From: Saprospiraceae bacterium
GTDB taxonomy: Bacteria; Bacteroidota; Bacteroidia; Chitinophagales; Saprospiraceae
Direction of reading: 5' to 3'
Length of the DNA stretch: 64,000 nt
Assembly: GCA_013001595.1 (NCBI GenBank)
Contig: JABDMH010000137.1
Location: forward strand, 1 to 64,000
Part shown: piece by piece, positions 52,308 through 62,067 of the stretch
Layout: each line of letters starts with the position of its first letter
Numbering within the stretch: position 1 is the stretch's first letter
Translations under genes and position numbers: made by a program
The notes under the pieces: model-generated
Told to the model about the DNA's origin: nothing
Databases searched by the model: none
The model's input: the letters and a program-made list of their open reading frames with translations, nothing else

Positions 52308-52639
52308 CTGCGAAATATTTTCACGTCCATCTCCTTTAAAACACTGGCAACCGACCATATTTCACTCGGCGGATCTACAAAAACAGTCTGATGGTGTTAT
52401 ACTCTTGAGCTTATGTCCTGCGAAATATATTCGCCTCTACAGCTTACCAAATCAACCATGGTCAATTTTGTGAACCACATAGGTACAATTGGGCTCATAG
52501 TCTAATTGCTTGTCCGCTTCCCCTCTGTGTTACTATGTGCCTGGGTAGTTCCCTTTCACTCATAGGTTTTTGGAACCAGAAGATACTTGGGGGGCTCATC
52601 ACATTTTGCTCGACGGATCCGAAAACGACCCTATCAGGG
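52308..52639 (+). repeat. Modular dispersed repeats, patch 1 (X-Y-X)
   Basis: Module X: CTCGGCGGATCTACAAAAAC (52365) followed by CCTGCGAAATATATTCGCCT (52418), and a second X at 52593-52639 (GGCTCATCACATTTTGCTCG then ACGGATCCGAAAACGACC). Module Y: GAACCACATAGGTACAATTG (52472), then CTGTGTTACTATGTGCC and GTAGTTCCC (52525-52553). The same modules recur at 62901-63370. The patch runs up to the stop codon of the molybdenum hydroxylase gene (52634). Confidence 0.78.
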
Positions 52640-54835
52640 ATGGCTTTGAATTTTAACTGGCAGGGAATAAATCCGCAAGCCCAGCGCATCAAAGATGGCA
52701 TTGGTGATGGACGCTGGAGTAGGTGGGGTGGCCAGTTCACCCCCACCCAGTGGTTGCTCTTGAGGCTGATCAAGGATGGTGATGTCAAAATCTGGGACAT
52801 TCCCGAATCTCAGAATGGGGTATGCATTCCAATCGGCGCATGAAACTGCATTGCCCTCAAAGGTGACAGACTCTTTCAGGGTCCAGCTGCATGCCTGTAG
52901 GATGGCTCCCTCTACTTGCATCTCCAGACCAAGTGGATTCATCACCTCCCCCACATCAACCACTGCCCAGCATTTAATCAAAGTAACATCTCCGTTCACA
53001 GAAACACTTAGTTTGGTGGCCAAGGCACAATATCCATCGGTATTCTTATATCTACCAAAAGCATATCCCAGACCTTCTCTTTCTGCTGTCTTTTCATTTA
53101 TGGTTTGCTCTTTTAGTCGCTCAAGGACAGCAATGGCCCGTTCATCATCCAGACGCTTTGTGCGAAAATCAATAGGATGCTCACCGAGGTATCTACTCAT
53201 CTTATCAATAATGGTCTCAATGGCAAATACATTGGCAAAGGCTCCTAGGCTGCGTAAAGATGATACGCGAAGAGGGCCCTGAAAATGATGCGCAACCAGC
53301 TTGTTTGAAGCAATTCGATAATATGGCTCGGCATTGCGATGCCCACCACGGATATAGCCCTTACCCTTCATGTAGAAAGGCTTTGACAAATATCTAGCTG
53401 ACAACAATGTTCCCGGATCTTTATTTGGTCTGGTGCTATGTGAATCAGTACGTACCTCACTTTCCCAGGTTACAATCTCACCCTGATCATTGAGTGTGGC
53501 TTTTACATCGATCTTAATGGCACTTCCCATGGCCTCCCACTGATGCTCCTGCTGCCGAGTCCACTGCACCCGGACATGTCGCCCACGGAATGCATGGGCT
53601 AAAATCGCAGCATCAGCGGCAGCATCATCTGCTGAGCTGTGCCCAAAGCAACCAGCACCTGCTTCACCTTTTACAATGATGCGTTCGGCTGGCATCGAAA
53701 ACAGACTCGCTAAAGCAGCACGAAATGGAAACACGCCTTGGCTATGGGTCCATACTTCTAGCAGGTCCATATCAAATTTAGCGACGCCGCAGGCTGGCCC
53801 CATGGCACCGTGTAAAATATATGGTTTGAAAAAAGTGCCTTCAAATGTGGCACCTGCTAAATCTTCCTTCACAGTAGGTGAAATCACTTCCACCTCTTCA
53901 GTGGACATTTCCTTCATCTTTTCAGAAAGAGTGCGATCTGTCACCGACACTTCATCGGAATGCCATTTGAGTTCTCTATCTAACCGCCTATGAGTCTTGA
54001 CCACCGTATATTCATCTGCTCCCACAATGGCAAGCATCTTCCCATCAACAAAAAGTTCAAGTCCTTCAGGTAAGAGGAGTTTCAGCTTGGCGACATCTAT
54101 GTTTCCGTTCCAATTTGGTGCTGGAGGTCGCAGGATCCTTGCATGCAACATCTGTGGAAACACGAGGTCCTGTATAAAATAGGGCTCTCCCCTGACGATC
54201 TGCTCGATGTCGTAGCTTACATTTGGCCTACCTACGAAACGGTACTTCCTCTTTGGTATAAGTTCAATCGGCATGGTCACCTCGACCTCGCTTTGCTGGC
54301 CACCAAGCACATTGGCTATGGATATACTTCGTTTCTTGTCCTTTGAGAATATGGTCCCATTGTCTAAGTGGACATCCTTGCGCTCCAATCCCCATTGATT
54401 TCCTGCCAATGAGCAAAGATGCATTCGGGCAAAGGCTGCGGCATACCGCACCGCAATGGCACTGCCTTTCACGGATCCGCTACCTGCCGTATATCCTTCA
54501 TTTGGCGTCATTGCAGTGTTTGCCATGATCACCTCCACTTGCTCCATCTCCATGCTTAGCTCTTCAGCCGCAACCTGTCGAATGACGGTTTTAATGCTCT
54601 GCCCGAGCTCAATCTTTCCTGTAAAGACTTGAACCCTATTATCTTCGGTCACTTGCAACCAAGCACCTAATGAAGGATTCCTCTGCAAAGTTCGTGGTAA
54701 TTTCTCCTCTTGAACTGGGCCATAGCTAGGCCAAAGGATCGGAGAAGTCAAGGGAAAAGAAACCATTAAAGTGCCGAGCTGCTTAACAAACGAGCGACGG
54801 CCTTCAATCGGTAAAGACTTCAATAAATCTTTCAT
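52634..54835 (-). CDS. Molybdopterin-binding subunit of a xanthine dehydrogenase-family enzyme
   Basis: The large catalytic subunit (733 residues from ATG 54835; an in-frame GTG at 54853 would overlap the upstream gene). It resembles the IorB/isoquinoline oxidoreductase group: Tat-like leader with EGRRSFVKQLG, then TGKIELGQSIKTVIRQVAAEELS, ANTAMTPNEGYTAGSGSV, ILHGAMGPACGVAKF, the GEAGAGCFGHSSADD and RGGHRNAEPYYRIASNK segments, and the closing LGGGELATPPTPASITNAIF with the active-site Glu context. It is coupled to the 2Fe-2S subunit (4-base gap), with no FAD subunit. It would hydroxylate an N-heterocycle or aldehyde in the periplasm. The substrate is not known. Confidence 0.9.
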   Translation of the reverse strand: MKDLLKSLPIEGRRSFVKQLGTLMVSFPLTSPILWPSYGPVQEEKLPRTLQRNPSLGAWLQVTEDNRVQVFTGKIELGQSIKTVIRQVAAEELSMEMEQVEVIMANTAMTPNEGYTAGSGSVKGSAIAVRYAAAFARMHLCSLAGNQWGLERKDVHLDNGTIFSKDKKRSISIANVLGGQQSEVEVTMPIELIPKRKYRFVGRPNVSYDIEQIVRGEPYFIQDLVFPQMLHARILRPPAPNWNGNIDVAKLKLLLPEGLELFVDGKMLAIVGADEYTVVKTHRRLDRELKWHSDEVSVTDRTLSEKMKEMSTEEVEVISPTVKEDLAGATFEGTFFKPYILHGAMGPACGVAKFDMDLLEVWTHSQGVFPFRAALASLFSMPAERIIVKGEAGAGCFGHSSADDAAADAAILAHAFRGRHVRVQWTRQQEHQWEAMGSAIKIDVKATLNDQGEIVTWESEVRTDSHSTRPNKDPGTLLSARYLSKPFYMKGKGYIRGGHRNAEPYYRIASNKLVAHHFQGPLRVSSLRSLGAFANVFAIETIIDKMSRYLGEHPIDFRTKRLDDERAIAVLERLKEQTINEKTAEREGLGYAFGRYKNTDGYCALATKLSVSVNGDVTLIKCWAVVDVGEVMNPLGLEMQVEGAILQACSWTLKESVTFEGNAVSCADWNAYPILRFGNVPDFDITILDQPQEQPLGGGELATPPTPASITNAIFDALGLRIYSLPVKIQSHP

Positions 54836-54839
54836 TCTT

Positions 54840-55292
54840 TTAGAGTATCGCACGTTTAACAGCCTTCATAACACGAGGATGCGAACCACAACGACAGAGT
54901 TGGCCTTTAAGTGCTGCTTGAATTTGCTCATCCTCGGGTTGTGGAATTTCTTCTAGTAAGGCCACCGTTGCGATCATCATACCGCTGGTACAATAGCCAC
55001 ATTGAGCAGCATTTTCCTCCATAAATGCCTGCTGAACGGGGTGTAAATCACCTTCCATAGTGCTAAGACCTTCCACCGTACGTACCGACTTGGTACCGAT
55101 GGCTGCTACAGGCAAGAGGCAACTATATCGAATCTCTCCATCAATCAGGACAGCACATGAGCCGCACTGACCCATTCCGCATCCAAATTTGGCCGCAAAG
55201 AGCTGAAATTCATTGCGCAACACATAGAGCAGCGGCGTATCTGGACTTGCCGAGGTGATCAATTCTTCGCCATTAATTCGTAGGGTTATCAT
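54840..55292 (-). CDS. 2Fe-2S subunit of the molybdenum hydroxylase
   Basis: The small electron-transfer subunit, 150 residues. The N-terminal plant-type ferredoxin fold has Cys38, Cys43, Cys46 and Cys58 (FGCGMGQCGSC ... C); the helical C-terminal domain has Cys98, Cys101, Cys133 and Cys135 (QCGYC, LCRCG). All eight cluster ligands are present. Together with the next gene it makes the two-subunit type that passes electrons to a c-type cytochrome or other acceptor instead of FAD. It is 93 bases downstream of the ABC ATPase and on the same strand. Confidence 0.94.
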   Translation of the reverse strand: MITLRINGEELITSASPDTPLLYVLRNEFQLFAAKFGCGMGQCGSCAVLIDGEIRYSCLLPVAAIGTKSVRTVEGLSTMEGDLHPVQQAFMEENAAQCGYCTSGMMIATVALLEEIPQPEDEQIQAALKGQLCRCGSHPRVMKAVKRAIL

Positions 55293-55384
55293 AGATAAAG
55301 GGCAATAGATGGGCTCTGAAAATACAACAAATGCTGTTATTGGTAGACTACGTCCATTTCAAATAGAAGCTTACTGAGTAGTCA

Positions 55385-56188
55385 CTACAGCTCAGAAACC
55401 CGAAGCATGGCATCCTCGACATCCTGTACCAATACTTCGTACTTGGCATCACGTTTAATGGCAGCTGTCCGCTCTAGTGGGAGATCTACGTGAATGTGTG
55501 CTGCAAAATGCGACGGAGCTGACTTTAAAATGTAGATGTCGTCTCCGAGAAAGACCGCTTCTCTAATGTCGTGTGTCACAAAGATAATGGTGCTGTGAAA
55601 CTTATGCCACACATCAACGAGCAGTTCCTGCATCTGTAAGCGGGTACGAATGTCTAATGCACCAAAAGGTTCGTCCATCAGAAGGATATGCGGATTGGCC
55701 AGGAGGCTGCGAGCAATGGCAACACGTTGCAATTGACCGCCAGATAATGCAGGGTACTGTGCGTACTTGTGCTCATGACCAGCCAAACCCACCATTTCAA
55801 TCAGTTCCATGGCTTTTTCTTTGCGGGCTTTGCGTGCCACACCCTTATAGCGTAAGCCCAGGGCCACATTGTCCAAGACCGTCATCCAGGGCAATGAAGA
55901 ATATTGCTGAAAGACCATACTAACCCGATTGTCATCACTCACTGGCTGGCCCAGGATGAGAACCTTTCCGTTTGTTGGCTTTTGCAGCCCAGCGATGTAA
56001 CGCAGTAAGGTAGATTTTCCACTGCCGGACATGCCTAAGATGATAGCAAACTGGCCTTGATCGGGCTTGTCTTCAATGAGAAGATCTAAACCTTGAATGA
56101 TAAAGGTCTGACCACCGTCATAGCTCTGATCAATATTCCGCAATTCGATGATATTCTGGCGGTTTGTATCTTCTTGTTTTATACTCAT
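55385..56188 (-). CDS. NitT/TauT-type ABC transporter ATPase
   Basis: A 267-residue ATPase from ATG 56188, whose start overlaps the permease stop by four bases (ATGA); an upstream in-frame ATG at 56257 would overlap it by 73 bases and is rejected. Walker A is GMSGSGKS (52-59), signature LSGGQLQRVAIARSLL (147-162), Walker B ILLMDEPF, H-loop VTHDIREA. These features match the SsuB/TauB/NrtD group. It forms the energy unit for the adjoining permease and the solute-binding fusion protein. Confidence 0.93.
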   Translation of the reverse strand: MSIKQEDTNRQNIIELRNIDQSYDGGQTFIIQGLDLLIEDKPDQGQFAIILGMSGSGKSTLLRYIAGLQKPTNGKVLILGQPVSDDNRVSMVFQQYSSLPWMTVLDNVALGLRYKGVARKARKEKAMELIEMVGLAGHEHKYAQYPALSGGQLQRVAIARSLLANPHILLMDEPFGALDIRTRLQMQELLVDVWHKFHSTIIFVTHDIREAVFLGDDIYILKSAPSHFAAHIHVDLPLERTAAIKRDAKYEVLVQDVEDAMLRVSEL

Positions 56189-57249
56189 ACTGCCTGAGGA
56201 ACTACGCGTTGTCGCTTCTTCCAAAATAGATATCCTTGATATCCCATCACGCACCACATAATGAAATGTATGGCCAGGGTGGTATCAGCAAAGAGATAGG
56301 TCAATATGGACTCAGAAGTTAAGATGGGTACGAATGAGTCGATTAGGAGAAGCAGATAGATGCCAATCAGCAACCATACGGCTATACTGCTGACAAAATT
56401 CCAGATAAGGTCCAAACTGGAAGTCTTCCTTTCTTTTACTTGATAGTGCTTCCGCTTTCCCTGGTATTTATGGGGAAAGAAGACTTTATCTAAGTAAATG
56501 AATATTCGATCCTGCACCATACCGATGATCATAATGATGATAAGCATGGCGAAGACCTTATCTACTCGGCCTTGTCGAATACCAGCTCTCCAAATTAGGG
56601 CACCTATTCCACCAGTAGCACCAATACCTTCGGCAACAATGATGTATGTCCACGAAATGGCAGTCAATACACGAATGTCGTCAGTGATTCTAGACAAGAC
56701 CGAAGGAATGTAGACAGTCTTGATGGTTTGCCAGGTATCAGCACCCAGCGTATAAACCGTCTTGAGATAAACATCAGAAACTTCCTTGACTCGCACAATG
56801 ACGACAGGCAATAGGTAAATCAATATGCCAAATGCCAGGAAATGAACCTTCATGGCCGTGCCTGTGCCAAACCAAACAATGAATAAGCCAGTGACCGCAG
56901 TAAGGGGAATGTAGCGAATGGCATCAACCTGTCGCTGAGCCAATCCCTGGAAAAGCGGGAATAACCCGATCACAAAGCCTAGTGGCAAAGCAATCAGCAC
57001 TGCCTCGATATATCCCGACAGGTTAAGGCCTATACTCATGCAAGTATTTCGGATGATGTCATTGTCCACATATAAGGACCCAAAAGAAGACAAAACCTTC
57101 CATGGTTTAGGTAAAATGTAGGCGGGGAAAAGTGGGTTCTCCCCCATAGTGATCAGCACCCAGACACCTAAGACGACCAATAAACCAATAAGCCCCAACA
57201 CCCACTTTTGCTGGGAGGTCAACTCGCCTTTCAAGGTAAAAAGTGACAT
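56185..57249 (-). CDS. NitT/TauT-type ABC permease with extra C-terminal membrane segment
   Basis: A 354-residue permease. Residues ~15-260 are the standard SsuC/TauC-like domain: a first helix, then the conserved WTYIIVAEGIGATGGIGALIWRAGIRQGRVDKVFAM (coupling region to the ATPase) and MIIGMVQDRIFIYLDKVFFP. The usual protein ends about here. This one goes on for ~90 residues: a basic linker (KRKHYQVKERKTSS) and two further hydrophobic segments (SIAVWLLIGIYLLLLIDSFVP and LAIHFIMWCVMGYQGYLFW). The gene lies 5 bases after the SBP-OmpA gene. Confidence 0.9.
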   Translation of the reverse strand: MSLFTLKGELTSQQKWVLGLIGLLVVLGVWVLITMGENPLFPAYILPKPWKVLSSFGSLYVDNDIIRNTCMSIGLNLSGYIEAVLIALPLGFVIGLFPLFQGLAQRQVDAIRYIPLTAVTGLFIVWFGTGTAMKVHFLAFGILIYLLPVVIVRVKEVSDVYLKTVYTLGADTWQTIKTVYIPSVLSRITDDIRVLTAISWTYIIVAEGIGATGGIGALIWRAGIRQGRVDKVFAMLIIIMIIGMVQDRIFIYLDKVFFPHKYQGKRKHYQVKERKTSSLDLIWNFVSSIAVWLLIGIYLLLLIDSFVPILTSESILTYLFADTTLAIHFIMWCVMGYQGYLFWKKRQRVVPQAV

Positions 57250-57254
57250 CCGAT

Positions 57255-58856
57255 CTATTGAACAGGAGTAGAAGCAATCAGCTGAAACTCAGTCCGGCGA
57301 TTTTTCTCCCGACATGCTTCGGTTGCATTACTCTCACAGCCAGGCGCGGGTTTGTCAGGACCATTTCCGACAATGACAAAGCGATTGCGATCCATATTGT
57401 AGGTAGAGACGAGATAGTCCGCTACGGATTGCGCCCTTTGCTGGGAAAGCTTCATATTCGTCGCCCTACTCCCCGTCGAATCGGTATTACCTTCTATTCG
57501 TACACGCAGGTTGGCAAAAGATTTAGCGATATCTGCGAGCTGCAAATCAATCAGGGTCTTCGCATTTTCTGTCAGTCTGTACTGCCCAGTATTGAAATTA
57601 ATGGTGATTGGTTTAATGGCAAGGGCTGGTGCAGATGCATCGGCTGCCGTCGGTGCGGAGAAATCACGCTGACCCTCCGCCTCAAATCCAGGACCTACCA
57701 AGCGTCCATTTGCAGCAGATACTGCAGAAGAATTCACCACGTTCCGCCAGGGTGGAGCCACTCTTTCTGCCTGCTCAAGCCTATGAAAAGTTTTAGCCAT
57801 TTTGCTGTACAGATCTTCTCCTTTCATACCTCGATATCTCGGATTGAGACCAAAGAAGTTCATATTGTCTCCATGGGTCGCAAAGTGCACATCTGCCATA
57901 GCACCTAGGGCATCTTCCTCAGGGAAGTTCAGAAATTCGCCCAAGATCTTCGCTGCCTTTGTACGGTTGGATTCAGAGGCATTGATCTCCGTAATGGCTT
58001 TCATCCATCCCTCATAGAAGGCATTAATTTTATCTCTATTTTGCTGAATAAAAGACTCCTTGGCAAACATGATGTCACCAATGATGTGTGACTGTTCTTG
58101 CGTGCTCACCAGCACTTTAGAACCCGCAATATCCCTGAGTGCTTCCAGGTGAAATGGGCTCCACACGACCGCCGCATCAACATCTGGTCCTTTAAAGGTA
58201 GTGGCCGCAACCACGGGATCGGGAGAGGCAACGATCTGCACATCTTCATATTTCAGTCCTGCCGCCTCCAGGGCTGTAATCAGGAGTGTTTGAGATGGCG
58301 ATGGTTCTGCTACTGCCACTCGTTTGCCCTTCAAATCATTGATGGAGTTGATACCACGTTTGGCAATGATTACATCGCCACCACGAGACCAATCTACCTG
58401 TATAAAGACTTTCGGCCGATAGTTGTAAATATCCGTGGGTGCAGTATAAAGTGGGTAGGCATCGGCTGTTTGTACGATGACATCATATTCGTCAGCTACC
58501 CATGCGTTAAGTGCTGCGTCTAGATTGTCATTGAGGATGAATTGAACTTTCAAACCGTAATCTTTATAAAAACGAGAACGCGTTGAGGCTTGAGCACCTT
58601 CATTGAAATACAGACCTGGTGCATAGCCACCCCAGGTGACCAATTGTACGGTCAACACATCCTCATCACTGGACGGCACTGCAGGAGAGCTGGTACTACC
58701 ATCTGATGGAGTAGTGTTGGTTGCAGTTTCACCAACTTGCTTAAACTGATCACCTAAATTCGTCTCATTAAGAATGAAACGAATGAGAAAAAACAAGCCC
58801 AAAATAATGAGCATGGTGATCAAGAACTTAGAAAATGTGGTCAATCGTCGTGCCAT
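57255..58856 (-). CDS. Solute-binding domain fused to OmpA peptidoglycan-binding domain
   Basis: A 533-residue protein. An N-terminal membrane anchor (~10-30) with no clear cleavage site is followed by a polar linker, then a periplasmic solute-binding domain of the NitT/TauT/SsuA type (~70-390: VTWGGYAPGLYF, DDIINDLKG-like INDLKGKRVAV, SQTLLITALEAAG, DAAVVWSPFHLEAL). Residues ~415-530 are an OmpA C-terminal domain: INFNTGQYRLTENAKTLI, IEGNTDSTGSRATNMKLSQQRAQSV, NRRTEF, which binds peptidoglycan. A free solute-binding protein is thus replaced by one fixed to both membrane and wall. It is 5 bases upstream of the permease. Confidence 0.9.
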   Translation of the reverse strand: MARRLTTFSKFLITMLIILGLFFLIRFILNETNLGDQFKQVGETATNTTPSDGSTSSPAVPSSDEDVLTVQLVTWGGYAPGLYFNEGAQASTRSRFYKDYGLKVQFILNDNLDAALNAWVADEYDVIVQTADAYPLYTAPTDIYNYRPKVFIQVDWSRGGDVIIAKRGINSINDLKGKRVAVAEPSPSQTLLITALEAAGLKYEDVQIVASPDPVVAATTFKGPDVDAAVVWSPFHLEALRDIAGSKVLVSTQEQSHIIGDIMFAKESFIQQNRDKINAFYEGWMKAITEINASESNRTKAAKILGEFLNFPEEDALGAMADVHFATHGDNMNFFGLNPRYRGMKGEDLYSKMAKTFHRLEQAERVAPPWRNVVNSSAVSAANGRLVGPGFEAEGQRDFSAPTAADASAPALAIKPITINFNTGQYRLTENAKTLIDLQLADIAKSFANLRVRIEGNTDSTGSRATNMKLSQQRAQSVADYLVSTYNMDRNRFVIVGNGPDKPAPGCESNATEACREKNRRTEFQLIASTPVQ

Positions 58857-58928
58857 GTCGTTTCGTTGTTTTGTTAAATGATCTCAGTTACAACAATTAA
58901 TTACTGATCCAACTGGGTGAGGTGTTGC

Positions 58929-59942
58929 TTATTCAAAGAAGTCGTCATATTGGTTGTCGTGATTAGCTACGCGCACGGGCTTCTTGATGGGCTGGTTAAG
59001 GTCCAGCACATTGCTATCATCTTCCGCTTCCAAGATTAGGTTATCCTTTTCTGCTCCCAGTAGTAATGATGGCCCTTCCTTCTCCCATTTCTCCAGCATC
59101 TTTAGACCCTCTTCTTCAAAAACTCCATTTTGCAGATCGACGGAAGACATAAAGCTTTCTGACATCTCCATAAATCTTTCCATTTCTCCAACCTTATTAC
59201 TGACATCATCAGCTATGGCTTCCAGGGCCTGATCAAACATCGCCCTTTTGTCAGCGTCACCACTGATCACGTTCATGGCACTCTTCATAGCCGAATTGCT
59301 GGCGTGAATGGCTTTGCGTTCCTGTTCTTTGATCATGACTTGATCCTGGATATCCTCCAGCATGATCTCTGAATTCTCATACATCTTCCTCAACACGCGA
59401 TAGAGCACTTCCATCTTTTGATAGAGGTCTTCCAGTTTCATATTCGACTCCTTCAGCCTGCCTGCCTTACGGGATTTTAGGATCATTACAGACTGTTTGT
59501 TTTTTTGTTTGGCCTTACTAGCCAAATCCAGGTTGCTCTTGATGGCTTTTCGATTGTTGAGAATCATCTCTTGCAACTTGTGCATCTGACCACGGAGCTG
59601 ACTGATCTGACGGTTCATCTTCCGCAAATTGTCCTTGAGGTCATCTACATAACTTTTTAAAATGCCGATGGGATCGATCTGTACAAATATGCCAGTGACC
59701 CATCTCATAACACTCTTGTACATATACCATACGAGGTTGCGCATTTTAGGATCAAGAACCATATAGATAATGGCACCAAGGACCAGCAGCATACCCGCAA
59801 GATAGAGCGTGTTGGAGGCTGCCGCGATAAGAAACGGTAGGGCCTGAACCAACAGGAAACCACCCCCCAAAACCAATCCACCCAAAATAATGGCTCCGGT
59901 TACTCCCTCAGGCCTTTTCCAGAAGCTTTTCTTTGTTACCAT
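58929..59942 (-). CDS. Membrane-anchored PspA-like coiled-coil protein
   Basis: A 337-residue protein. Two N-terminal membrane segments (~14-35, ~42-62) precede a long heptad-rich helical part (~85-290). The segment DPIGILKSYVDDLKDNLRKM resembles the start of PspA/IM30 proteins, and the helices are rich in Lys, Glu, Met and Gln as there. The last ~50 residues are acidic with no clear structure and end in DDFFE. PspA proteins are soluble and remodel or protect membranes; this one is fixed to the membrane. It lies between the solute-binding fusion and a second coiled-coil gene, 72 and 40 bases away. Confidence 0.75.
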   Translation of the reverse strand: MVTKKSFWKRPEGVTGAIILGGLVLGGGFLLVQALPFLIAAASNTLYLAGMLLVLGAIIYMVLDPKMRNLVWYMYKSVMRWVTGIFVQIDPIGILKSYVDDLKDNLRKMNRQISQLRGQMHKLQEMILNNRKAIKSNLDLASKAKQKNKQSVMILKSRKAGRLKESNMKLEDLYQKMEVLYRVLRKMYENSEIMLEDIQDQVMIKEQERKAIHASNSAMKSAMNVISGDADKRAMFDQALEAIADDVSNKVGEMERFMEMSESFMSSVDLQNGVFEEEGLKMLEKWEKEGPSLLLGAEKDNLILEAEDDSNVLDLNQPIKKPVRVANHDNQYDDFFE

Positions 59943-59982
59943 ATAATGAACACTTTATACCTATTTACAACACCGAATTGGG

Positions 59983-60663
59983 TTATTGTCTCAAATATTT
60001 AGCAATATTATCGATATCCTGCCTTATTTGCTTGACCAAGTCCGCATAGCTGGCTACGAATCGTCTGCCAGTCAGTTCAACTCTCTCCGTAGCAGAACTG
60101 ATATTACGCTCCAATTCCGATAATCCTTCACGTTGAGCTGCGATCTCCTGCTTTAGTGCTTCAATCTGTGCCTCTTTTTGGGCAATGGCTGATTCTGCCG
60201 CCTTTAACTCGGTCTGTCGATCTTCAATCTGAATGGTTCGTTGCTTTTCAAGAGCAGCGCGAAACTTATCCTCTTCCGTCTGCAATACAGCTACATAATG
60301 TTCAGCCGAAGCGATCAAGGAATCTGGCGTCGCCCCCATCGTCTTAGCCGTTGCAAAGGCACTTTTATAGATCGTACCTTCAGCCATATCCATCTTTTTG
60401 AGGTTTTGCACCGACCGCTTAAACTCTAAATAGTCAAAGCCTTCTTGATTGTTCTCTTCAATCGCATTCATCAGAATATTGGTGAATTTCTCGTTGATCT
60501 GACCATCTGCCGGAAGATCTGCGTGCGGCACCCTCTGTTTGCTTGGAGCAGAGATCTTACTCGGTGAATTCACCTGGCGATCACGCTCGGTTGGTTGGGC
60601 CTTGGTGGCCTCTGCACTCTCAATGATGAAAGCTGATTTTATCTTTTTGAAAATGCTACTCAT
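59983..60663 (-). CDS. Soluble coiled-coil protein, unknown family
   Basis: A 226-residue protein without signal peptide or membrane segment. The N-terminal ~70 residues are polar and Pro-rich (probably disordered); residues ~75-130 form a globular helical segment (NILMNAIEENNQEGFDYLEFKRSV, MAEGTIYKSAFATAKTMG); residues ~135-226 form a continuous coiled coil with QIEDRQTELKAAESAIAQK and ending in IDNIAKYLRQ. It is the first gene of the minus-strand cluster and is 40 bases before the PspA-like gene. I know no defined function. The pairing with a PspA-like membrane protein and an ABC system suggests a shared envelope role. Confidence 0.7.
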   Translation of the reverse strand: MSSIFKKIKSAFIIESAEATKAQPTERDRQVNSPSKISAPSKQRVPHADLPADGQINEKFTNILMNAIEENNQEGFDYLEFKRSVQNLKKMDMAEGTIYKSAFATAKTMGATPDSLIASAEHYVAVLQTEEDKFRAALEKQRTIQIEDRQTELKAAESAIAQKEAQIEALKQEIAAQREGLSELERNISSATERVELTGRRFVASYADLVKQIRQDIDNIAKYLRQ

Positions 60664-60798: not shown

Positions 60799-62067
60799 AT
60801 GATGATACCAGAATCGGCATTTGAGATTTATTCGAGTTCAGAAATCAACCCCTTGGAGGCTGTGCTGGTGCATCGTCCAGAACGCGGCATTGCTAGGGTA
60901 TATCCAAAGAGGTCTGAGGAGTTTTTATTTGACGACATCGTATACCTACCACAGATTGTAGAGGAACATGATCTATTTGTATCCGTCCTACGTAAAGCAT
61001 GCGGAAAAAATAGTGTATTCTATGTCCATGATCTCTTAGTGGAGGCACTAGATCAAGACCAACAAGCACAAGAAGACATCATTCGGCAGATCATTGATTT
61101 TGAGGAACTTCCAACCAAGTATATTCACGAGCTATCGGATCTAGACAACCGATCTTTGGCAGAAGTGCTCATCAGTGGATTCCTAGCTTCTCATGAGCTT
61201 ATTTTATTCGATCCCATCCCAAATTTCATTTTTACTCGCGACATTGCAGTTACCATCAAGGATCATGTTGTGCTTACCAAAGCTTCAAAGATGGCCCGGC
61301 ATAGGGAGAACTTCCTGACCCAATTCATCTTTTGTAACCACCCCATGTTCAGAACCTTGCGACAAGAGGATCGGATAATCAATATGAATGATGTGGAGCT
61401 TTTTCCGCGTTCGCGTCGGGGTGAATCGGTCTCCATCGAAGGCGGAGATATGATGTTGTTTGCAGAAAACCATTTTTTAGTCGGATGTAGTGAACGAACG
61501 ACCCAGCACGCCATTCATAGCTTGCGGGACGTACTCTTTGAGAAAGGCATTGTCGATAATGTGGTGCAGGTAAATATCCCCAGCGATCGTGCTTTCATGC
61601 ACATAGATACCGTATTTACACGCATCAGTGCGGATCATATAGTCTGTTATCGTCCACTCATCTATGATGGACTGAGCTCTTACGTCACTGTTTTTCGGCG
61701 CAATGGCAGTGAAGTGAGCTATCATTCCGTCAAAGATTTTATCGAAGGGGAAATCAACAGTCGTATGAAGTTCGTCTTTGCTGGACAAGGACTCTCGCCC
61801 TATCAAGAGCGAGAACAGTGGACAGATGGATGCAATCTGGTGGCATTGAAACCCGGTGTCGCCATCACCTACGATCGTAATATTAGGACGCTGAATGCGC
61901 TCGAAGCATATGGATTTACAATCCTGGGCGCGGCAGCATTTCTTAAGGAGGAGCGACCTTTTGCTAAAGTTCAAAACACCATCATCACCATACCTTCTAG
62001 CGAATTGTCACGTGCACGAGGAGGATCACATTGCCTTACCCTGCCTTTAAGGAGGTCAAAGACGTAA
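60799..62067 (+). CDS. arcA: Arginine deiminase family protein
   Basis: A 422-residue amidinotransferase-fold enzyme that hydrolyses arginine to citrulline and ammonia. The complete active site is visible: FTRD (145-148), EGGD (214-217), HIDTVFT with H268 and D270, and the nucleophile C412 in GGSHCLTLPL near the C-terminus. No carbamate kinase or ornithine carbamoyltransferase gene adjoins, so this is probably not part of a fermentative ADI operon; a role in arginine salvage or a related guanidino substrate is possible. The second ATG of a MM pair could be the real start. It is divergent from the coiled-coil cluster. Confidence 0.92.
   Translation: MMIPESAFEIYSSSEINPLEAVLVHRPERGIARVYPKRSEEFLFDDIVYLPQIVEEHDLFVSVLRKACGKNSVFYVHDLLVEALDQDQQAQEDIIRQIIDFEELPTKYIHELSDLDNRSLAEVLISGFLASHELILFDPIPNFIFTRDIAVTIKDHVVLTKASKMARHRENFLTQFIFCNHPMFRTLRQEDRIINMNDVELFPRSRRGESVSIEGGDMMLFAENHFLVGCSERTTQHAIHSLRDVLFEKGIVDNVVQVNIPSDRAFMHIDTVFTRISADHIVCYRPLIYDGLSSYVTVFRRNGSEVSYHSVKDFIEGEINSRMKFVFAGQGLSPYQEREQWTDGCNLVALKPGVAITYDRNIRTLNALEAYGFTILGAAAFLKEERPFAKVQNTIITIPSSELSRARGGSHCLTLPLRRSKT

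Follow-up and report, generated by a model that had tools for sequence, protein, structure and literature searches.

Relation to described systems

Operons combining a PspA/Snf7 protein that carries a transmembrane (TM) segment with an AAA+ ATPase, an ABC ATPase, a permease and a PBPB/OmpA protein are described in the compared text of Ravi et al. (2024, mSystems; PMC11237479), a paper that has itself put forward a connection of membrane remodelling with solute transport and that reports, for a Bacteroidetes example, a third gene encoding a coiled coil next to PspA and Snf7. Here we describe a related five-gene envelope unit in Saprospiraceae bacterium GCA_013001595.1, contig JABDMH010000137.1, positions 1-64,000, the whole stretch of 64,000 nucleotides being referred to as the window. 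The unit encodes a soluble coiled-coil protein (CC), a PspA-like protein anchored in the membrane (PSP), a fusion of solute-binding and OmpA domains (SBP-OmpA), a permease and an ATPase. Within the text compared, it shares with the operons of Ravi et al. a PspA-like TM protein, an ABC ATPase, a permease and a solute-binding/OmpA protein, both domains residing in one polypeptide alongside the ABC permease and ATPase. It differs in its constant CC partner and in the lack of a recurrent AAA+ partner, no such gene having been found near the unit in a motif scan, run without an AAA+ profile. Split forms of the unit, an exchanged outer domain and a shared anchor are found here and not in the compared text of that article, whose tables may already list the present operon. 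Literature searches for this operon returned PMC11237479 as the only description of something similar, other papers being judged by their listings, and no bench study was found; in the main text of PMC9239133, OmpA does not occur.

Importers of the NitT/TauT/SsuABC type likewise combine an NMT1 solute-binding domain with a permease and an ATPase, whereas the solute-binding protein (SBP) of the unit is apparently tethered at both ends and the proteins of the unit fall below the cut-offs of the NCBIfam models compared. PspA and Vipp1 (IM30), of the ESCRT-III superfamily, have a long helical hairpin resembling that modelled for PSP, which differs in its two preceding TM helices and in a sequence below the family cut-off. 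The OmpA part of SBP-OmpA matches MotB, PomB and Pal chains. MotB and PomB combine an inner-membrane anchor with an OmpA domain; compared with these proteins and with Tol-Pal, the unit has a solute-binding domain between anchor and OmpA domain, and an ABC ATPase instead of ion flow. The unit appears to be a variant of a gene grouping noted by comparative genomics, with a function that we infer.

The five-gene unit and its conservation

The initial annotation described seven tightly ordered genes with named domains on the minus strand, and all of their open reading frames (ORFs) were confirmed in position and content. A subset of five genes is conserved as a unit across several families of a single class, in the order CC - PSP - SBP-OmpA - permease - ATPase. 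CC (59983..60663) is followed after 40 bases by PSP (58929..59942), and PSP after 72 bases by SBP-OmpA (57255..58856). A junction of 5 bases separates SBP-OmpA from the permease (56185..57249), which overlaps the ATPase (55385..56188) by the 4 bases ATGA, both transporter junctions holding on rereading of the sequence. The ORF list gives a GTG at 56257 as the ATPase start; the ATG at 56188, overlapping the permease stop, is used instead and gives a protein of 267 residues. The genome containing the window comprises 6.2 Mb in 161 contigs, and the named genomes closest to it are metagenome assemblies bearing the labels Saprospiraceae, Lewinellaceae or Bacteroidia.

A scan of 148 relatives for the SBP gave a match in 57 genomes, of which 39 had their neighbourhoods retrieved (40 loci, L032-L071). 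Two of these loci, the G025 match (L071) and the second G067 match (L063), are proteins joining a TIR domain to an NMT1 domain (TIR-NMT1) and not SBP-OmpA; they were excluded from the SBP profiles behind the neighbourhood, anchor and identity results and retained in the SBP alignment used for Protein Data Bank (PDB) matches, SBP-profile scans and the comparison of type-1 with diverged forms. A second set, derived from PSP, comprises the best 80 of 502 loci (L072-L151), many of them truncated by contig ends. Counts based on PSP use 77 of the 80, gene calling having given no PSP at L083, L097 and L100, where the profile scan placed one. The two sets share genomes, and their counts are not summed.

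In the 40 fetched loci, CC is present in 36, PSP in 37, the permease in 30 and the ATPase in 29, with a hydroxylase in 1. The best 80 of 502 loci contain PSP in 77, CC in 65, SBP in 62, the permease in 36, the ATPase in 35 and a hydroxylase in 1, with direct same-strand pairs CC-PSP in 60, PSP-SBP in 60, SBP-permease in 32 and permease-ATPase in 28. CC-PSP-SBP-OmpA occurs in the named genomes Flavilitoribacter nigricans DSM 23189 (L080) and Lewinella cohaerens DSM 23179 (L117). The genome comparison suggested in the initial annotation, which asks whether the coiled-coil genes remain linked to SBP-OmpA and the permease when the hydroxylase is missing, favours a five-gene core. At 8 of 37 and 15 of 77 loci, another gene with a Walker A motif lies no more than 8 kb away, these genes being of assorted kinds; the commonest, of 594-597 residues (L035, L059, L104, L106, L148), looks ABC-like.

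Even where the unit is split, genomes tend to have both SBP-OmpA and the permease. Among the 148 relatives, 57 have an SBP match, 59 match the permease profile and 55 have both. The two with an SBP match alone are G014, in which a permease fragment follows the SBP, and G025, whose match is the TIR-NMT1 protein; the four with a permease alone are G023, G143, G032 and G052, of which G023 and G143 carry a diverged SBP-OmpA beside the permease. Ten genomes were fetched for having the permease distant from SBP-OmpA or on a different contig, and in 10/10 the permease is followed by the ATPase. A wider permease profile is matched in 12/12 genomes with SBP-OmpA and in 0/9 genomes with PSP and no SBP-OmpA found (G011, G033, G085, G300, G304, G140, G390, G512, G864); in these nine, among the matches listed, SBP-OmpA profiles reach only the OmpA end or little more.

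PSP itself is more widespread, being present in 88 of the 148 relatives, with at least two copies in 69 of the 88. At nine second-copy loci (L152, L154, L156, L158, L167, L182, L183, L184, L187), CC is present and SBP-OmpA does not adjoin PSP; at L160 neither stands beside PSP. The second CC-PSP pair of the window genome lies outside the window (G000:C36:40999-41991, L152). Among plasmid-borne annotated relatives of the SBP, all 650 records have less than 60% identity and 0 cover 80% of the query, and the PSP of L163 had no match among plasmid-borne annotated records.

Other families and a shared anchor

Across the class, 19 of 395 genomes, belonging to nine families, contain a match to a wider PSP profile, and a CC-type gene adjoins PSP in 13/13 loci from other families. 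Seven loci (L228-L234) of six families (f116, f108, f86, f93, f107, f20) display the order CC-PSP-SBP-OmpA-permease-ATPase, with two genes between PSP and SBP in L231. In f29 (L163-L165), CC, PSP and SBP-OmpA are ordered and followed by a permease match in 3/3 loci, that of L163 coming from the wide profile alone; an ATPase gene was called in L163 and L165 and none in L164. Families f116 and f108 have an SBP-OmpA of the window type (type 1), and the remaining families carry a diverged type, which aligns with type 1 nearly end to end in profile comparison (probability 99.9), with an OmpA match in 9/9 and a weak NMT1 match in 2/9.

The third gene of f30 (L161, L162, L235) encodes a membrane-anchored protein replacing SBP-OmpA in its slot. 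Scans of L161 and L162 gave a weak Ppx/GppA match for L162 (E 3.4e-4, under the cut-off) and no match for L161, and the wide permease profile found no such permease in 3/3 genomes of this family. A profile of the type-1 anchor, the first 32 residues, finds the f30 protein in all three loci (E 1.7e-9, 1.1e-8 and 6.8e-8) in a search set of 2413 N-termini, duplicates included, in which the best protein outside the unit reaches E 0.047. A related anchor is thus carried by two different outer domains, the Ppx-like protein of f30 and SBP-OmpA, as judged from the profile search. Ten diverged SBPs score E 2.6e-6 to 3.9 against this profile, six of them better than 0.047. Within type 1, mean pairwise identity is 0.72 in the first 16 residues, 0.54 in the solute-binding domain, 0.64 in the OmpA domain and 0.22 in the linker. 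Since the first 16 residues are less varied than both outer domains, docking on CC/PSP is suggested, and the simplest reading would be that the cytoplasmic tail of SBP-OmpA docks there.

Domains and structure of the proteins

SBP-OmpA contains a single N-terminal TM segment (residues 11-29), an NMT1-type solute-binding domain (47.9 bits, cut-off 20.5) and a C-terminal OmpA peptidoglycan-binding domain (PF00691; 64.6 bits, cut-off 27.2). No lipobox was found in its first 45 residues. With an N-terminal TM segment and no lipobox, the protein should therefore be fixed to both the inner membrane and the wall, apparently with a tether at each end. Its two outer domains are placed in the periplasm because such domains act there. 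The OmpA residues D459 and R474 are kept in 39/39 SBP-OmpA sequences; in OmpA domains, such an Asp/Arg pair holds peptidoglycan. A separate SBP without an OmpA domain, lipoprotein-like in appearance, adjoins SBP-OmpA at L045:6943-8085. The TIR-NMT1 proteins of relatives of the window genome (L063:9273-10937 and L071:1673-3202) fuse a TIR domain to an NMT1/phosphonate-type solute-binding domain and may be TIR enzymes whose activity a small ligand controls.

The permease is of NitT/TauT type (BPD_transp_1, 44.2 bits, cut-off 26.4), and the ATPase matches ABC_tran (104.4 bits, cut-off 25) with intact motifs, completing with NMT1 the domain set of a NitT/TauT importer. ATPase homologues in the 40 loci, of 255-340 residues, retain Walker A in 30/30, LSGGQ in 29/30 and Walker B in 30/30, and all three motifs are present in 11/11 ATPases from other loci. 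TM prediction places extra hydrophobic segments at the permease C-terminus, as the initial annotation had noted in calling this permease extended; the extension was rejected as a defining part of the unit, being weakly conserved and missing in seven other families. A permease at L052:7396-9087 carries a long insertion matching Cadherin. Between permease and ATPase, 5/40 loci (L042, L044, L046, L048, L055) contain a gene of a single family, whose L042 member matches Haem_oxygenas_2 and TENA/THI-4/PQQC, a possible hint at metabolism of the ligand.

The structure model of CC (mean pLDDT 81.8) comprises a helix at residues 3-12, a three-helix region at 58-108 and a terminal helix of 112 residues (113-224), and no TM segment is predicted. 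Among the four aligned proteins, PSP varies least, with a mean column identity of 67%. Two TM helices are followed in its model (mean pLDDT 70.5) by a helical hairpin (91-219) and further helices, the coil being predicted to be cytoplasmic. PF04012, the PspA family, is matched at E <= 0.01 in 7/38 PSP members, and a distant member from another family reaches 33.5 bits. A broad PSP profile of 63 sequences matches a canonical PspA profile, built from 28 sequences of the same phylum, with probability 51.5 and E 1.5e-4 over 62 columns, the reversed and CC controls giving probabilities of 0.5 to 6.0. Structural alignment with VIA-align places the PSP model on E. coli PspA (4whe) with Z 9.3 and rmsd 2.2 over 121 residues, and on Vipp1 (7o3w) with Z 9.8 and rmsd 2.7 over 134 residues. 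PSP is probably a distant relative of PspA/Vipp1. A PDB sequence search with the PSP profile gave no match at E <= 1, and a PF04012 search of the window genome gave nothing above the cut-off, its one match being the second PSP copy.

Neighbouring genes

Downstream of the ATPase, after 92 bases, the longest gap within the seven-gene block, lies the 2Fe-2S subunit of a xanthine oxidase-type molybdenum hydroxylase (54840..55292, minus strand), with Fer2 (36.1 bits, cut-off 21) and Fer2_2 (100.4, cut-off 30.3). The molybdopterin subunit (52634..54853, minus strand) matches MoCoBD_1 (67.4, cut-off 27) and MoCoBD_2 (129.5, cut-off 27). An in-frame ATG at 54835 would leave 4 bases between the two genes, and the listed GTG start would make them overlap by 14. 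The motif RRSFVK near the N-terminus of the large subunit looks like a Tat signal.

Orthologues of the hydroxylase with 49-53% identity occur in G001, G003, G004 and G005, with further ones in G019 (47%) and G025 (43%), and only that of the congener G004 adjoins the unit (L032). Those of G001, G003 and G005 lie on other contigs, and G001, which is 85% complete, has the orthologue and no SBP-OmpA match. In L033, from the congener G003, a DUF2911 gene directly follows the ATPase, and the same gene follows the hydroxylase in the window. The hydroxylase, found in 1/40 fetched loci and not at the same place in L033, was rejected as part of the unit and is taken to be a neighbour gained at this locus or lost elsewhere. 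Upstream of CC, a divergent gene of the arginine-deiminase family (window positions 60799-62067) is present in 14/40 fetched loci.

Interpretation and alternative explanations

The reading we favour, to which we give about an even chance, is that of a five-gene envelope unit in which a wall-tethered importer is docked on and coupled to a PSP-CC scaffold. SBP-OmpA would span the periplasm, with its anchor in the inner membrane and its OmpA domain holding peptidoglycan, while its solute-binding domain would feed the permease-ATPase, a NitT/TauT-type importer of a small ligand. On the cytoplasmic side, PSP with its two TM helices and CC would form a coiled-coil scaffold of PspA/ESCRT-III-like make, in which PSP may form polymers, and the conserved short cytoplasmic tail and TM segment of SBP-OmpA would dock on it. 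In this way, ligand capture at the wall and transport would be linked to PSP-CC, a pair that probably supports the inner membrane and that would stabilise or remodel the membrane locally. Tentatively, the CC-PSP platform could also be modular, recruiting interchangeable periplasmic heads through their N-terminal tail and TM segment, either a wall-bound solute-binding head serving an ABC importer or a Ppx/GppA-like head for which no such importer was found, with ligand and wall contact steering the scaffolding instead of an AAA+ ATPase. From the single machine of the initial annotation, the five-gene core is retained and the hydroxylase and the permease extension fall away; that the five products form one physical machine is what we infer.

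Several observations weigh against the docked five-gene unit. The fold search of the PDB with CC gave 34 matches at E <= 10, including Vipp1 chains at E 2 to 5, and 0 at E <= 0.001. The membrane-anchored PspA-like protein of the initial annotation has two TM segments, and its PspA likeness is weak by sequence (17.3 bits against PF04012, cut-off 33.9); the profile match covers only 62 columns and drops to probability 24.2 with a narrower PSP alignment, and Foldseek gives Vipp1 at E ~0.2 and above. BAR domains (Z up to 10.9) and ciliary proteins equal or exceed the Z-scores of Vipp1 and PspA, the BAR-like matches having been set aside as generic long-helix likeness. In some genomes the unit is broken up, 3+2, 2+3 or into three parts, as in G090, with SBP-OmpA (L068), CC-PSP (L179) and permease-ATPase (L177, whose permease match contains internal stops near the contig end) in three places, or in G023 (L221, L219) and G143 (L180, L220), split as CC-PSP and SBP-permease-ATPase. 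G032 and G052 have a permease but no SBP-OmpA that was found, the SBP-profile matches listed spanning the OmpA end only, and the Fisher p of 3.8e-33 for co-occurrence of SBP and permease is uncorrected for relatedness. Over the whole type-1 anchor (residues 1-29), mean pairwise identity is 0.58, below that of the OmpA domain. Four diverged SBPs (L230-L233) match the anchor no better than outsiders do, and tail docking is not supported in their families.

A simpler explanation, somewhat unlikely in our judgement, is an ordinary importer whose SBP is tethered to the wall by chance, CC-PSP being a general membrane-maintenance pair that is co-transcribed and physically unlinked. The abundance of PSP would fit this, as would the lack of SBP-OmpA beside the second copies examined, the freedom of permease-ATPase to sit elsewhere, the presence of SBP-OmpA with the permease and not with CC-PSP in G023 and G143, and the gene family intervening between permease and ATPase, whose L042 member is TENA/haem-oxygenase-like, as might be seen with a metabolic importer. 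However, SBP-OmpA stays with CC-PSP while the permease lies elsewhere in L050, L053, L054, L056, L060, L061 and L070, and the replacement protein in the SBP-OmpA slot carries a related anchor. Another alternative is a sensor in place of an importer, whose outer domain would read ligand or wall state and whose anchor would relay it to PSP-CC, with the ABC proteins driving the signalling. The outer domain varies by family (type-1 SBP, diverged SBP, Ppx/GppA-like), with no such permease in the Ppx-like family; yet the ATPase retains its motifs and the permease its domain, and the presence of the permease closely follows that of SBP-OmpA, as transport would predict. We judge the sensor improbable.

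The machine of all seven genes, with the hydroxylase acting on the captured or imported ligand as the initial annotation proposed, we consider extremely improbable. The hydroxylase genes share the strand of the unit and lie close to it in the window, an arrangement repeated in L032, and G003 contains a distant homologue (30%), cut by the contig end and encoded on the other strand some 10 kb away from the ATPase gene. Against this stand its single occurrence beside the unit among the fetched loci, its absence from the corresponding place in L033, and the closer orthologues on other contigs, one of them in a genome lacking an SBP-OmpA match.

The conserved unit, in which a PspA-like protein accompanies a wall-bound, ligand-binding importer and a specific partner of coiled-coil type, provides a concrete candidate for testing. 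The occurrence of its CC-PSP-SBP-OmpA part in the named carriers Flavilitoribacter nigricans and Lewinella cohaerens makes it accessible to bench work.

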